Shown piece after piece: positions 40,500-55,190 of a stretch of DNA of 64,000 bases. Made by a program: the position numbers and the translations under genes. Every line of letters begins with the position of its first letter. The first letter of the stretch is position 1. Origin of the DNA: an uncultured Latescibacterota bacterium (lineage in GTDB: Bacteria; Latescibacterota; UBA2968); contig OX638329.1 of assembly GCA_951812755.1 (NCBI GenBank), positions 1,659,339 to 1,723,338 of the forward strand, read 5' to 3'. The notes beneath the pieces were generated by a model, which saw nothing but the letters and a program-made list of their open reading frames with translations, was not told the DNA's origin and did not search any database.

Positions 40500-41404
40500 A
40501 TTCTATTGAAGATGTTGAGGAGCGGTTTGCCGAGCAGGGGTATATCACGGACCGCACATTGGCAACGACGATTTTTTTGGCGCAGGCACTTGGCAAACCG
40601 ATTTTTCTGGAGGGGGAACCAGGTGTTGGAAAAACAGAAGTGGCCAAAGTTATGGCCAGTATTTTTGGTACCGAGTTGATTCGATTGCAGTGCTATGAAG
40701 GCATTGATGCCAATACGGCATTGTACGAATGGAATTATCCGCGCCAGATGTTGGAGTTAAGGCTTGAAGAAGCGCGAGGAATCGACAAGGCCGAAATTGG
40801 TCAGAATATTTTTCGCGAAGATTTTTTACTCAAGCGTCCCCTTTTGTCGGCTCTTGAGGGCAGCGCAAAAAAGCAACAGGTGTTGTTGATCGATGAGGTG
40901 GATCGGTCGGATGAAGAGTTTGAGGCGTTTTTGCTGGAGGTGTTGTCCGATTTCCAGATTACGATTCCCGAGATTGGTGCGATTAAAGCAATGCAAGTGC
41001 CATTTGTCGTGCTCACGTCCAATCGAACGCGCGAATTGCACGACGCGCTGAAGCGCCGATGTTTGTATTTGTGGATTGACTATCCCACATTTAGCAAAGA
41101 AATGGATATTGTGCGGTCGCGTGTGGCGGGTGTGCAAGACGAATTGGCACAACAGGTTTGCGGGTTTATGCAATTGTTGCGCAATCGCGATTTTTACAAA
41201 AAACCCGGCGTTGCCGAAACGATTGATTGGGCACTGGCTCTGATGGCTATGCGTGTTGAAGAATTGAACCCGCAGACAGTTGATGCGACATTGGGATGTG
41301 TTTTGAAGTATAAAGAAGATATTGAAAAAATTCAGGAAGACGGCCTGCCACAACTGATTGAGAAGGCCCGATTGTTAAAAGAACGCACGCAAATTGGCGT
41401 TTAG
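40493..41404 (+). CDS. MoxR/CoxD-type AAA+ ATPase
   Basis: About 303 residues starting at ATG 40493 behind AGAAAGG. Walker A GEPGVGKTEV (residues 41-50), Walker B LLIDEVDRSDEEFEAFLLEVL and sensor 1 VPFVVLTSNRTRELHDALKRR are typical of the CoxD group of MoxR ATPases. In carboxydotrophs CoxD helps insert the copper-sulfur centre into CO dehydrogenase, working with a VWA protein (CoxE). The next gene encodes just such a protein, nine bases on. No CO or xanthine dehydrogenase subunit gene is in view. Confidence 0.9.
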   Translation: MLNSIEDVEERFAEQGYITDRTLATTIFLAQALGKPIFLEGEPGVGKTEVAKVMASIFGTELIRLQCYEGIDANTALYEWNYPRQMLELRLEEARGIDKAEIGQNIFREDFLLKRPLLSALEGSAKKQQVLLIDEVDRSDEEFEAFLLEVLSDFQITIPEIGAIKAMQVPFVVLTSNRTRELHDALKRRCLYLWIDYPTFSKEMDIVRSRVAGVQDELAQQVCGFMQLLRNRDFYKKPGVAETIDWALALMAMRVEELNPQTVDATLGCVLKYKEDIEKIQEDGLPQLIEKARLLKERTQIGV

Positions 41405-50889: not shown

Positions 50890-51099
50890 GAAGCTGTTTT
50901 AAAATTAATACCTGATGTTACGCATGTCCGGCGTTTTGTCATGCTGAGCGTAGCCGAAGCATCTTTTCCACCTGAGTTGGTAAGAGATGAACTGCTACGC
51001 AGTTGTACCCCGCTCCTTCGACTCCGCTGCGCTCCGCTCAGAATGACAGGGCAATAGCGCATAGCTGAGAAGGGGCAAAATGAGTTTTAAAACAGTCTC
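50890..51099. mobile_element. 210-bp miniature inverted-repeat element, copy B
   Basis: The element starts directly behind the stop codon TAA (50887-50889) of the PorV-type gene and is followed by a second TAA (51100-51102), a probable 3-base duplication. Its left end is GAAGCTGTTTTAAAA and its right end is a slightly decayed complement. Read from the gene it is nearly the same as copy A at 28658-28841, with one 26-base insertion containing a small palindrome (GAACTGCTACGCAGTTG). No gene lies inside. Confidence 0.9.
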
Positions 51100-51124: not shown

Positions 51125-51168
51125 AACCGCCTGTGTTGGTTTATTTTGCCAATACAGGCGGTTTTTTT
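51125..51168 (+). terminator. Rho-independent terminator
   Basis: AACCGCCTGTGTTGG (51125-51139) pairs with CCAATACAGGCGGTT (51149-51163), with one G-T pair, followed by a T run. It closes the PorV-type gene's transcript. Confidence 0.9.
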
Positions 51169-51226: not shown

Positions 51227-51242
51227 TGGCACAGATATTGCA
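51227..51242 (+). promoter_or_regulatory. Sigma-54 (-24/-12) promoter of pspA
   Basis: TGGCAC, five bases, then TTGCA gives the GG and GC doublets exactly ten bases apart, matching the RpoN consensus. It is 52 bases ahead of the pspA start. pspA is sigma-54-dependent in enterobacteria through PspF; no activator gene is nearby here. Confidence 0.8.
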
Positions 51243-51294
51243 GAAAGGTAGATGTGCATATGATCGATAACCAAAAATCAAAAGGAGATATACC

Positions 51295-51966
51295 ATGGGT
51301 ACCTTTTCGAGAATAAGCAATGTTGTCCGCGCTGAGGTTGACGATGTTCTGAATAAGATAGAGGATCCTAAGAAGATGGTGCGGCAGATGGTTCGGGATA
51401 TGGAGGACGCGCTGGATGATGCGGTGGTTGCCGTGGCACAGGCGATGGCAAATGAGAAGTTGCTGGCGCGCCGGATTGCTCAGAAGCGGGAAGATTCGGC
51501 TTTGTGGGCGCGCAAGGCAGAGGATGCTATGGCTGCCGGTGAGGAAGAACTGGCGCGCAAGGCACTGGTTCAGAAGGTGGCGGTTGATGAAGCGGTCAAT
51601 ACACTGCAAAAAGCACGGGAGGAAGCAGAAGAGGTGACGGCGATGCTGAAGCAGCGACTCGCAGATCTGAAGGCGAAGTTGGCGTCTGCCCGCGCGCAAC
51701 AAAGCACGCTGGCGATTCGCAAACAGGTGGTGGTGCAGGAGATGCGACAAGATGCGCGTGTGGCGGCTTATGATCGGTTTGTTCGGGATGTGGCGCGCGA
51801 GGAAGCGACTGCTGAGATTTATGCGGAGATGGTGGATGATGCACAGTTGCAAGAAGAGTTTGATCAACTGGAGCGAAAGCAGCGCGTTGAAGCTGAGATG
51901 CAGGTGTTGAAGGAAAAAGTGAAACAGAGCGTGCGCCAGGATGATGAATCTGAGGAGGGGAAGTAA
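51295..51966 (+). CDS. pspA: PspA/IM30-family membrane-stress protein
   Basis: 223 residues, nearly all helical and coiled coil. It starts MGTFSRISNVVRAEVDDVLNKIEDPKKMVRQMVRDMEDAL, as typical PspA proteins do: an amphipathic helix that binds stressed membranes and then the long hairpin of the ESCRT-III-like fold. It assembles on the inner face of the cytoplasmic membrane to limit proton leakage. AAAAGGAGATATACC precedes the start, and a sigma-54 promoter lies further upstream. It shares a transcript with a small membrane protein two bases on. Confidence 0.92.
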   Translation: MGTFSRISNVVRAEVDDVLNKIEDPKKMVRQMVRDMEDALDDAVVAVAQAMANEKLLARRIAQKREDSALWARKAEDAMAAGEEELARKALVQKVAVDEAVNTLQKAREEAEEVTAMLKQRLADLKAKLASARAQQSTLAIRKQVVVQEMRQDARVAAYDRFVRDVAREEATAEIYAEMVDDAQLQEEFDQLERKQRVEAEMQVLKEKVKQSVRQDDESEEGK

Positions 51967-51968
51967 TC

Positions 51969-52157
51969 ATGTTGGCAAAATTATTTGGCATTGCCCTGCT
52001 GGTCGTCGGCGGGATTGTTGCATTTTGCTTGCTGATGGCGCTCATTGGAACGATTTTTAGTATTTTGATTTTTGCATTGAAGGTGGCAATCCCCGTGGTG
52101 CTGGTATATCTGGGGTATCGATTGATTACGCGAGATAGGCATCAGGTTATGTATTGA
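51969..52157 (+). CDS. Small membrane protein of psp operon
   Basis: A 62-residue protein with two adjacent hydrophobic segments (about residues 4-30 and 33-53) and a short basic C-terminal end. It begins two bases after the pspA stop. By position it could be a PspB/PspC-like or LiaF-like partner that brings PspA to the membrane, but the sequence is too short to assign. A terminator follows. Confidence 0.72.
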   Translation: MLAKLFGIALLVVGGIVAFCLLMALIGTIFSILIFALKVAIPVVLVYLGYRLITRDRHQVMY

Positions 52158-52188
52158 ATTAATGTTTAGCTGACAGCAAATGAATAGA

Positions 52189-52221
52189 AGCCCTGGGCGT
52201 TAGATAACGTCCAGGGCTTTT
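52189..52221 (+). terminator. Rho-independent terminator after psp operon
   Basis: AGCCCTGGGCGTTA (52189-52202) pairs with TAACGTCCAGGGCT (52205-52218) with one mismatch, followed by TTTT. Confidence 0.85.
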
Positions 52222-52299
52222 GTGTACAAACACTTGACAGAGAGATATATTGCAGATTATTTACTGTTAATTATTCAGTAGAGTGGTTTATAGTTGTTG

Positions 52300-54303
52300 A
52301 TGATTGATAAGGTGGGTGTATTGGAAAATCTTTTTTTTAAATTGCGATCGCGAACTACTGACCCGTTTGCGCGAGTAAAAAATTATCTGAAATTTCGCGT
52401 TGAGCGACTGTTGCTGCTGGGCGTCCACTTTCATCTGCTGGTCATTGCTTCGGTAATCGGGTTGGTCGCCGTTGGTGGTGGTTTGCTGGTGCAGGCTACG
52501 GACGCACCTTTTGATGATCGCGAGACAGCCATCTGGTGGGCATTTTTGCGCTTGACCGATCCGGGTTATTTGGGAGATGACGAAGGGCTTGCCCGCCGCG
52601 TGATTTCAACGGTGGTGACGGTGCTTGGATATGTGCTTTTTATGGGGTCGTTGATTGCAATTATGACGCAGTGGCTCAATCAGACGATTCGCAATTTTGA
52701 GCGCGGGCTTACGCCGATTGTGCGTCGCAATCATATTTTGATTTTGGGATGGACCAATCGCACGTCCGAAATTGTCAGCGAGTTGATGCGCGCTGAGGAG
52801 CGCGTGCGCCGGTTTTTGCAACTGCTCGGTGCGCGTGGGTTACATGTGGTGATTCTTTCCGAAGACGTGAGTTTGGAGCGCACAATGGAATTGCGGAGAG
52901 CACTGGGCCCTCTGTGGAATCCTAAGAAGATCACATTTCGGTCGGGAATACCTCTGCGGATAGAACATTTGGAGCGCGTGGATTTCAAAAATGCGAGTGC
53001 TATTATTTTGCCCGGTGCTGATTTTGCTTATGGCAGTGCGGATGAATCGGATATGCGCATTATAAAAACATTGATGTCGATATCGAATCAAGGTGAAAAA
53101 GGGGATGCTAAAGAGGTTCTGCCCTTGCTGGTGACAGAAATTTTCGATTCCGACAAAGTGGTTATGGCAAAAAGAGCCTATCGGGGTGTTTTGGAAATTT
53201 TGGCGAGCGATGTTTTTATTACGCGATGTATGGCGCAAAATGTGCGTCATCCGGGATTATCGCATGTGTTCCACGATATTTTGTCGCACGGGCTTGGCAA
53301 TGAGGTCTATATTCGCACCTCCGAACAGTTTACGGGTTTTCGTTTTGGCGATGTATCAGGTGCGTATCCCAAAGCGGTTTTGCTGGGCGTGGTGCGTCCC
53401 AAGGGTGAGGCGTTTTGTCCCATGCTCAATCCACCCGAGGATCTAATTTTGGAATCAGAAGACCGTCTGGTCTTTTTGGCAGAGGGATACGAGAATTGTG
53501 AACCCCTGAGAAATTATCAGTTAAAACGCGTGTCGCGTAAATTTCAAGAGGTGCCCTATGTGAGGGAAAAGGGCAAACGACGCGTCTTAATTTTGGGATG
53601 GAATCACAAAGCAGTGGATTTGCTCAAAGAGTTCGGCAGGCAGGTGCGCGAACAGTTTGAGGTCGTGGTTTTGTCTCTTATACCCTCGGCACAGAGAGAA
53701 GCTGAAGTGGCGCAAAAGGGCATTGACCCGCGCCGCGTGGTTGTCACCCATCGCGAAGGTGAGCCCACTTCGCGATCAAATTTAAGAGAAATGGATCCAG
53801 GTGGGTATGACAATGTGGTGATCCTGGGCAGTGATTGGGTAGAGACACAGGAAGAGTCGGATGCGCGGACGATTGTGGTACATCTGGTGCTGAGGAATGT
53901 ACTGGAGGAGAGCACCCATAAACCAGAAATTCTGGTCGATTTGATGGATGCCGACAATGTGGCGTTGTTTGAAGATTACAATACCGAGGTATTGGTTACG
54001 CCAATGATCGCAAGCCACGTGCTGGCACAAGTTGCGTTGCGTCGGGAGATCAATGTTGTTTATGAAGAGTTGTTTGCTGCCGGTGGTGCAGAGATTTTCT
54101 TTCGCCGAGTTTCAGATTACGGCATAGCAGGTCAAGATGTGAGTTTTGGGCAGATCAAAGAGATGGCGGCATGTCGGGGCGAAATCGCGCTGGGGATTCG
54201 CTTGCAAAACGGCGGAGTTGTACTCAATCCAGCGCATGATGAGCCATATATGCTAAGTGAATCGGATGATCTTATTGTATTGGTTCGGGAGGATCAGTCA
54301 TGA
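52300..54303 (+). CDS. CASTOR/POLLUX-type ion channel with two RCK-like domains
   Basis: About 667 residues. Two membrane helices near the N terminus (about 45-68 and 105-125) surround a pore segment FLRLTDPGYLGD, the form of the filter found in bacterial CASTOR/POLLUX relatives instead of the usual GYG. Two Rossmann-like RCK/TrkA-N domains follow, starting NHILILGWTNRTSEIV and RVLILGWNHKAVDLL. The plant homologues are nuclear-envelope cation channels; the bacterial role is unsettled. The start is uncertain: ATG 52300 is used, but TTG 52321 has AAGGTGG at good spacing. It overlaps the MscS gene by four bases (ATGA). Confidence 0.85.
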   Translation: MIDKVGVLENLFFKLRSRTTDPFARVKNYLKFRVERLLLLGVHFHLLVIASVIGLVAVGGGLLVQATDAPFDDRETAIWWAFLRLTDPGYLGDDEGLARRVISTVVTVLGYVLFMGSLIAIMTQWLNQTIRNFERGLTPIVRRNHILILGWTNRTSEIVSELMRAEERVRRFLQLLGARGLHVVILSEDVSLERTMELRRALGPLWNPKKITFRSGIPLRIEHLERVDFKNASAIILPGADFAYGSADESDMRIIKTLMSISNQGEKGDAKEVLPLLVTEIFDSDKVVMAKRAYRGVLEILASDVFITRCMAQNVRHPGLSHVFHDILSHGLGNEVYIRTSEQFTGFRFGDVSGAYPKAVLLGVVRPKGEAFCPMLNPPEDLILESEDRLVFLAEGYENCEPLRNYQLKRVSRKFQEVPYVREKGKRRVLILGWNHKAVDLLKEFGRQVREQFEVVVLSLIPSAQREAEVAQKGIDPRRVVVTHREGEPTSRSNLREMDPGGYDNVVILGSDWVETQEESDARTIVVHLVLRNVLEESTHKPEILVDLMDADNVALFEDYNTEVLVTPMIASHVLAQVALRREINVVYEELFAAGGAEIFFRRVSDYGIAGQDVSFGQIKEMAACRGEIALGIRLQNGGVVLNPAHDEPYMLSESDDLIVLVREDQS

Positions 54304-55190
54304 CGACCTGGGACGAGTTGCGCGCGGTATTTGAGAAACAGCTCGTAGCTTTTGGCGAGATAAAAATAACGCCCGCCATTTTGCTGACGGCTGTGCTGAT
54401 TATCCTTGTCGCGTATGGAATATCGCGGTTGTTGCAGCGCATGTTGCGGCGTGGCGTATTTGAACAGATACATCTAAATCATGGTTCGCAGTCGGCTATC
54501 TGTCGCGTATTGCACATTATTATCATGTGCATCGGCACATTTATCGCTATAGAATATACCGGGATTGATCTGACGACATTGGCTGCTGTCAGTGCGGTAT
54601 TGTTGGTGGGGATTGGTTTGGGGCTGCAAAATATTACCCACAATTTTATTAGCGGACTCATTTTGTTATTTGAGCGGCCCGTGCAGGAGGGAGATTTTGT
54701 GGAGGTGGGTGGCGTGCAGGGCAGTGTGCAAGCAGTCAATGCATATAGCACAAAAGTTGAGACCCTGGATAAGGTGACGATTATTGTGCCCAATTCGCAT
54801 TTTCTATCTGAAAATGTCATAAACTGGAGTTTTCAAGATTCAAAAGTGCGTATTCATGTATCTGTGGGGGTGTCCTATGGTTCCGATGTGGAACTGGTCG
54901 CAGAGATGTTGCTGGAGGTAGGGCAGGCGCATCCAGAGGTTTTGTCCGATCCCGAACCACAGATACAGTTCCTGGGCTTTGGCGATAGTTCGCTAAATTT
55001 TGATTTGCTGGTGTGGATTGCGGATCCGACCCGTCAATATTTTGTGGTCAGTGATTTGAATTTTGCAATTGTTCAGGCATTCAGAACGCGGGATATTACT
55101 ATTCCATTCCCGCAGCGGGATTTGCATGTGCGAAGTGCTGTGCCAATGAGTGTGGCTACACAATCGGATGGTGAGAAAGAAATAGAATAA
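54300..55190 (+). CDS. MscS-family mechanosensitive channel
   Basis: 296 residues. Three membrane segments are followed by the pore-lining and beta-domain signature of MscS: LAAVSAVLLVGIGLGLQNITHNFISGLILLFERPVQEGDFVEV. The C-terminal alpha/beta part is complete. It opens under membrane tension and protects cells from osmotic shock. ATGA overlap with the CASTOR-like gene implies one transcript, giving two ion channels in tandem next to the pspA operon, all of them concerned with membrane integrity. Confidence 0.92.
   Translation: MTTWDELRAVFEKQLVAFGEIKITPAILLTAVLIILVAYGISRLLQRMLRRGVFEQIHLNHGSQSAICRVLHIIIMCIGTFIAIEYTGIDLTTLAAVSAVLLVGIGLGLQNITHNFISGLILLFERPVQEGDFVEVGGVQGSVQAVNAYSTKVETLDKVTIIVPNSHFLSENVINWSFQDSKVRIHVSVGVSYGSDVELVAEMLLEVGQAHPEVLSDPEPQIQFLGFGDSSLNFDLLVWIADPTRQYFVVSDLNFAIVQAFRTRDITIPFPQRDLHVRSAVPMSVATQSDGEKEIE

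Follow-up and report, generated by a model that had tools for sequence, protein, structure and literature searches.

An orphan pspA gene of a Latescibacterota bacterium has a sigma-54 promoter and a predicted enhancer dyad that point to control by a PspF-related response regulator

The orphan pspA gene described here is likely driven by a sigma-54 promoter, with an upstream enhancer at 51136–51152 and an activator related to PspF whose gene lies elsewhere on the chromosome, in an operon headed by another pspA gene, pspA2. The window, by which we mean the whole 64-kb stretch of DNA that was analyzed, corresponds to G000:C1:1659339-1723338, and its source genome (G000), a single contig of 6.53 Mb, belongs to the Latescibacterota, a phylum of the FCB group. 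The best reading of the data is one of PspF-like control of pspA outside the Proteobacteria, in which a phosphorelay replaces control by PspA, PspB, and PspC. The initial annotation of this DNA had proposed the same control logic with different parts, and this proposal appears to be right and to extend further, to the regulator of the pspA2 operon and to a dyad common to both pspA genes. Its companion statement, that no PspF-type activator is adjacent, is true only of the neighborhood: there is no gene for an enhancer-binding protein (EBP) in the 64-kb window, but the pspA2 operon does encode a PspF-related regulator.

The window pspA (51295–51966, plus strand) encodes a 223-aa protein that matches PF04012 with 115.5 bits (E = 3.6e-33) against a gathering score of 33.9, which places it in the PspA/IM30 family; its score with TIGR02977, 127.5 bits, is under the 242.95 cut-off of that model. 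In the PspA tree, all 18 orphan genes of this kind, referred to here as type A, form one clade (100/100) beside the operon-type genes from their own order, and the fork joining the two types has a support of 92/100, which we count as not firm. We read type A as a pspA copy that would have left the operon. A ribosome-binding site (AAGGAG, 51282–51287, plus strand), read from the sequence and conserved in relatives, precedes the gene, and a 62-aa membrane-protein gene (51969–52157, plus strand; hydrophobic by reading) follows it, as such a gene adjoins 16 of the 18 type-A genes. This partner had been described as neither PspB nor PspC, and indeed the 62-aa ORF has no Pfam or NCBIfam match, and neither PspB (PF06667) nor PspC (PF04024) was found in the genome. 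The unit is followed by a hairpin and then a few T residues, a likely terminator (52184–52223, plus strand; fold −29.2 kcal/mol, z −8.5). Further 3' of the unit, at 52294–55187, lie genes for a Castor/Pollux-RCK channel and for MscS; matches to both are also found 3' of the pspA unit in G001, G003, and G007, and after the unit on the opposite strand in G002. In two close relatives, G006 (L103:1391-2860) and G004 (L104:12676-14100), the gene of a different NtrC-type EBP comes immediately after the orphan pspA unit in convergent orientation; the window has none there. Upstream of the unit, a repeat-like stretch (..TTCGACTCCGCTGCGCTCCGCTCAGAATGACA..) is common to the window at ~50940–51060 and the intergenic region upstream of pspA3 (L064).

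The sigma-54 promoter, TGGCACAGATATTGCA, lies on the plus strand at 51227–51242, 52 bp ahead of the pspA ATG at 51295. It reads TGGCAC-N5-TTGCA and agrees with the pattern TGGCAC-N5-TTGCW at 11 of 11 positions, with both the GG and GC elements and their spacing intact, exactly as first annotated. The pattern has two matches in the 64-kb window against 0.08 expected, and 63 in the whole genome, where the reversed pattern has 3. The other window match (40987–41002, minus strand) looks internal to a reading frame, as judged from the 500 flanking bases that were read, and was dropped. The search for rpoN and EBPs that had been suggested as a check found an rpoN gene (PF04552, E = 4e-59) and about 25 full-size EBPs in the genome. 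Transcription of pspA would presumably start at ~51253, the position expected from the usual spacing to the −12 element.

The second pspA gene (pspA2, G000:C1:1921640-1922290) is of the operon type, and the gene for the PspF-related regulator (G000:C1:1914276-1915682) lies in the same operon. This row (L097) starts with pspA2 and the genes for a 221-aa protein, a 119-aa protein, an ECF sigma factor, and a 201-aa protein, and continues with those for a Band_7 protein, a TPR histidine kinase, the receiver-AAA-HTH regulator, and a SpoIIE phosphatase. The 201-aa protein, which we take to be NfeD-like, has no Pfam hit; together with the Band_7 protein, it mostly follows the operon-type pspA in f1 and f2 genomes, and family f4 has a shorter row, in which pspA is accompanied by genes for a 221-aa-protein homologue, the kinase, and the regulator. 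Of the 38 operon-type loci, 32 have the regulator gene downstream of pspA and in the same orientation, never divergent from it, and at the remaining 6 the contig ends 1.1–4.0 kb after pspA; at the type-A loci it was found in 0 of 18. The kinase, taken to be cytosolic, contains TPRs and has no membrane domain in Pfam, and its GHxxKNL motif is invariant in 31 sequences. The receiver of the regulator matches Response_reg (PF00072) over residues 3–110 (E = 5.6e-17), and its phosphoacceptor aspartate is invariant in 31 of 31 regulator orthologs. The AAA+ loop reads GAFTGA in 21 of these and GAYTGA in 10, and the HTH_8 match of the regulator, at 17.1 bits, is under the 22-bit cut-off. With its receiver aspartate, AAA+ loop, HTH, and adjacent kinase gene, the protein qualifies by sequence as an NtrC-type two-component response regulator.

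In the circuit that we propose, sigma-54 RNA polymerase would transcribe the window pspA from the promoter at 51227–51242, and the product of the regulator gene in the pspA2 operon would activate it from the enhancer at 51136–51152. The regulator combines PspF-type AAA+ and helix-turn-helix parts with an added receiver. The TPR histidine kinase would sense membrane stress, perhaps via its TPR part, and phosphorylate the receiver, upon which the regulator would bind the TTGGY-N7-RCCAA dyads and open both pspA promoters. The pspA2 operon would activate or amplify its own expression in this manner and recruit the orphan pspA and its small membrane protein.

The kinship of the regulator with PspF is apparent from several comparisons, although by curated cut-off there is no PspF in this genome, as none of the 27 TIGR02974 matches reaches 443.55 bits. 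The regulator has the best TIGR02974 score among the EBPs of the genome (309.3 bits in the genome search), and for its AAA+HTH core PspF is the first of all NCBIfam families, with 347.7 bits, also below the cut-off; the core of an f4 ortholog reaches 370.7 bits with PspF. Taken alone, the HTH of the G000 regulator matches only the two PspF models, and that of the f4 regulator has weaker matches to Fis and NtrC models as well. A tree was built from 41 AAA+HTH cores, with 11 regulator orthologs representing all and L026 left out. In it, the regulator groups with E. coli PspF and with a PspF-like protein of G087 (100/99), a genome outside the phylum in which the gene for this protein is divergent from pspA, and E. 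coli NtrC, ZraR, AtoC, GlrR, and NorR stand apart along with 23 other EBPs of the genome. NtrC4 and ZraR outscored PspF in a PDB sequence search with the full-length regulator, a search in which the receiver counts and the stored PspF chains are without the HTH. The regulator stands outside PspF proper by its receiver, its gene order, and its lack of Trp56, and its score is below the PspF cut-off. Two EBPs of PspF-like length, L013 and L024, were considered as activators and rejected, as for each of them another family scores above PspF and both fall outside the PspF group of the tree. When 386 genomes were searched for the regulator at a cut-off of E 1e-100, too strict to pick up weaker relatives, the only genomes outside the phylum to pass were G077, G108, and G293, in which no PspF-type HTH was found, nor any pspA on the fetched stretch (the contig of G293 is short).

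Among the other EBPs of the genome, the one at G000:C1:5999451 (L025:520-2403) joins an N-terminal part that matches Cas_NE0113, a CRISPR-associated family (E = 1.2e-35), to a sigma-54 activator domain with a Fis-type HTH, and may be a nucleotide-sensing sigma-54 regulator. An expanded family of ~1070–1120 aa (L011, L012, L014–L017, L019, L020, and L022, plus the shorter L013) forms one tree clade; L011, the member that was scanned, carries Reg_prop and Y_Y_Y sensor domains, and several members have perfect −24/−12 sites such as TGGCACGCTTTTTGCA close by. The EBP-like product of L026 (G000:C1:3024691), 287 aa long, starts with a SHOCT-like region and has neither a GAFTGA loop nor an HTH.

In E. 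coli, PspA docks at Trp56 and holds PspF inactive, and the W56A substitution is reported to abolish PspA binding (PMC6003685). Trp56 is present in E. coli PspF and in the PspF of one genome outside the phylum and is absent from 31 of 31 regulator orthologs, and the brake on the regulator is thus probably the receiver. Retention of PspA feedback via another surface, with the receiver as a second input only, is a less likely arrangement but one that deserves some weight, as a second PspA-PspF contact, involving the C-terminal part of PspA, is reported for E. coli in the same source (PMC6003685); it would have to accommodate both the absence of Trp56 from every ortholog and the lack of PspB and PspC for signal relay.

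Besides the −24/−12 element, the control region has a second half, a conserved upstream dyad held in a terminator-like hairpin, that the initial annotation missed. Lining up the promoters brought out the dyad TTGGY-N7-RCCAA, ~72–98 bp before the −24 element and common to both pspA types, and the predicted enhancer (UAS) of the window, TTGGTTTATTTTGCCAA, at 51136–51152, lies 74 bp ahead of that element and agrees with the motif at 10 of 10 positions. The core TGGY-N7-RCCA occurs 40–140 bp before the −24 element in 15 of 16 genes of type A and in 29 of 35 of the operon type, compared with 177 of 12,000 random 100-bp segments, the gene counts not being independent events, as the sequences are related. 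L100, L143, and L147, with <140 bp before the site, were left out of these counts, and the genes in which the dyad was missed are L109 (type A) and L118, L135, L144, L150, L151, and L152 (operon type). Operon-type genes, above all those of f4, often have two copies ~21–22 bp apart. A matrix transferred from one pspA type to the other is a stronger test than these counts: trained on 12 operon-type sites, it gives all but one of 15 type-A promoters a score of at least 12.9 (15.2 for the window; 9.4 for L109, the exception), whereas 29 other G000 sigma-54 promoters, drawn as controls from the 62 other perfect sites of the genome, have a mean of 1.1 and a maximum of 11.6. The 18 f4 promoters score 6.0–18.3, and some of them are therefore not above the controls.

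Across 21 genomes of the order, the joint dyad and promoter pattern has 50 matches against 3 for the reversed control, with 26 of the 50 at pspA genes by position and 24 elsewhere; among the latter, three precede other genes of interest, and one pair that was examined has no clear target. The three sites of interest lie before MacA/HlyD-type adaptor genes in G013:C340 (L189) and G014:C801 (L191) and before an STAS-like gene in G014:C427 (L190), all named by reading their translations, from which MacB-like permease ORFs are also read after the G014 adaptor gene. These adaptor and STAS-like genes of sister genera are possible further members of the regulon. An IHF-like site between enhancer and promoter was also considered and rejected, being mostly no better than shuffles and perfect in 2 of 32 promoters.

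As there is no linkage on the chromosome, the pairing of the regulator with the orphan pspA rests on the common dyad. Another EBP, or several, might activate the orphan gene from its sigma-54 promoter, leaving the common dyad as an ancestral residue, and the ~25 EBPs of the genome would offer choices, as would the L002-like EBP gene found directly 3' of the pspA unit in G006 and G004. We consider this unlikely, as the L002-like gene adjoins only 2 of the 18 type-A loci, and 15 of 16 retain the core of the dyad amid otherwise diverging DNA, f2 genomes included. Activation by the regulator of the pspA2 operon remains the preferred reading.

The co-directional gene upstream has a terminator-like hairpin (51125–51163, plus strand; located by scan; fold −28 kcal/mol, z −8.3) with a T run at 51162–51168, and the window dyad lies in the part of its stem nearest the loop. 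All 15 type-A loci that were folded have this arrangement, with the dyad in the loop-proximal stem and 4–8 T after the hairpin (z −4.4 to −10.6). An upstream ORF was found at 13 of 16 loci examined, and at 11 of these 13 the nearest one is co-directional. Both the strong hairpin with its T run and the co-directional ORF would suit a dyad that is a terminator stem and nothing more, of which the regulator makes no use, but this is very improbable, as the same core is found at operon-type promoters without such a hairpin (17 operon-type sites fold mostly at shuffle level, with a lowest z of −3.5), the inner TTGG/CCAA is nearly fixed between genomes while the outer stem pairs change type in a plain comparison of the stem sequences, and the dyad-to-promoter spacing is kept. 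We infer instead that the hairpin would shield pspA from read-through while its core dyad binds the activator. An enhancer inside a terminator hairpin, the two formed by one palindrome, would be an unusual double use of the DNA at the orphan pspA promoter.

Conservation of the promoter in relatives, another check that had been suggested, was scored in 60 stretches around PspA-family genes of G000 and its relatives, plus the window, wherever at least 90 bp of upstream sequence was available, and a promoter was counted as present at 9 or more of the 11 positions. L111, with 46 bp upstream, was left out of the promoter counts. L154 has a second PspA fragment (E = 7e-8) that entered none of the counts, and the PspA tree was built without this locus. 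The site is present before 17 of 18 type-A genes (L120 has none), 37 of 37 scorable operon-type genes, and 2 of 5 other PspA-family paralogues; no promoter of this kind precedes the third pspA paralogue of the genome (G000:C1:1347705), which makes it a helpful negative case. In close relatives, the −24/−12 element forms a conservation island within diverged DNA, and genus-level relatives have a TATAAAAAACA stretch ~38 bp before the promoter. That the match is chance or a relic, with a sigma-70-type promoter driving pspA, is scarcely credible given its presence at nearly every type-A gene against 15 of 853 other ORFs of at least 150 aa on the same stretches (an earlier count, whose start-finding rule differed from that of the pspA counts and failed on most f4 genes) and given that the scan listed no sigma-70-like sites in the gap separating pspA from the terminator upstream of it.

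In enterobacteria, PspF and sigma-54 are already known to control pspA; the same is predicted in Desulfovibrio, and two-component control of PspA homologues is known from LiaRS. The E. coli pspF-pspABCDE system is alike in having PspA, a sigma-54 promoter of the same form (TGGCACGCAAATTGTA), a 17-bp upstream dyad, and an activator with a PspF-type AAA+ domain and HTH. The best dyad match in the E. coli pspF-pspA intergenic stretch, TTAGTGTAATTCGCTAA, agrees with the motif at 8 of 10 positions, and the E. coli dyad TTAG-N9-CTAA resembles the TTGGY-N7-RCCAA found here. Unlike E. coli PspF, the activator here has a receiver and a partner kinase, is not encoded divergently from pspA, and is without Trp56, and the genome has two pspA loci with a common enhancer and is without PspB and PspC. 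The phage-shock operon of Desulfovibrio vulgaris (DVU2989 / DVU2988-2986) is predicted to be sigma-54 dependent (PMC4641369), another candidate for such control outside enterobacteria, but its EBP is a single-component protein without an N-terminal domain, like E. coli PspF, and without a receiver. The LiaRS-LiaIH system of Bacillus subtilis also combines a two-component-controlled PspA homologue with a membrane partner (PMC9239133, PMC11237479), but LiaR is described as a receiver-winged-HTH protein rather than an AAA+ EBP, and LiaS has a membrane region, whereas the kinase here has TPRs and no membrane domain in Pfam. The PspA-flotillin-NfeD neighborhoods, for example in Acidobacteriota, have similar Band_7 and NfeD-like partners (PMC9239133), to which the row here adds the ECF sigma factor, the TPR kinase, the PspF-like response regulator, and the SpoIIE phosphatase. 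Among titles and abstract beginnings of the open-licence literature, we met no receiver-bearing PspF sister with a common enhancer and found no paper on sigma-54 control of pspA in Latescibacterota or on a terminator holding a sigma-54 enhancer.

A more tentative idea, which we would not rate as the likelier history, is that the receiver-bearing form of PspF is the older one and that the enterobacterial circuit arose when the receiver was lost and the Trp56 loop acquired, with the dyad and the recognition helix kept across phyla. Psp control would then have begun with sigma-54 and a two-component system, and the new loop would have allowed PspA itself to take over as the brake. The circuit proposed here, in which a PspF sister from a distant phylum pairs the same promoter form and a closely similar enhancer with a receiver and no docking residue for PspA, would by itself show that enhancer control of pspA is old and its sensing arm exchangeable, and it makes the origin of the regulatory role of PspA directly testable.
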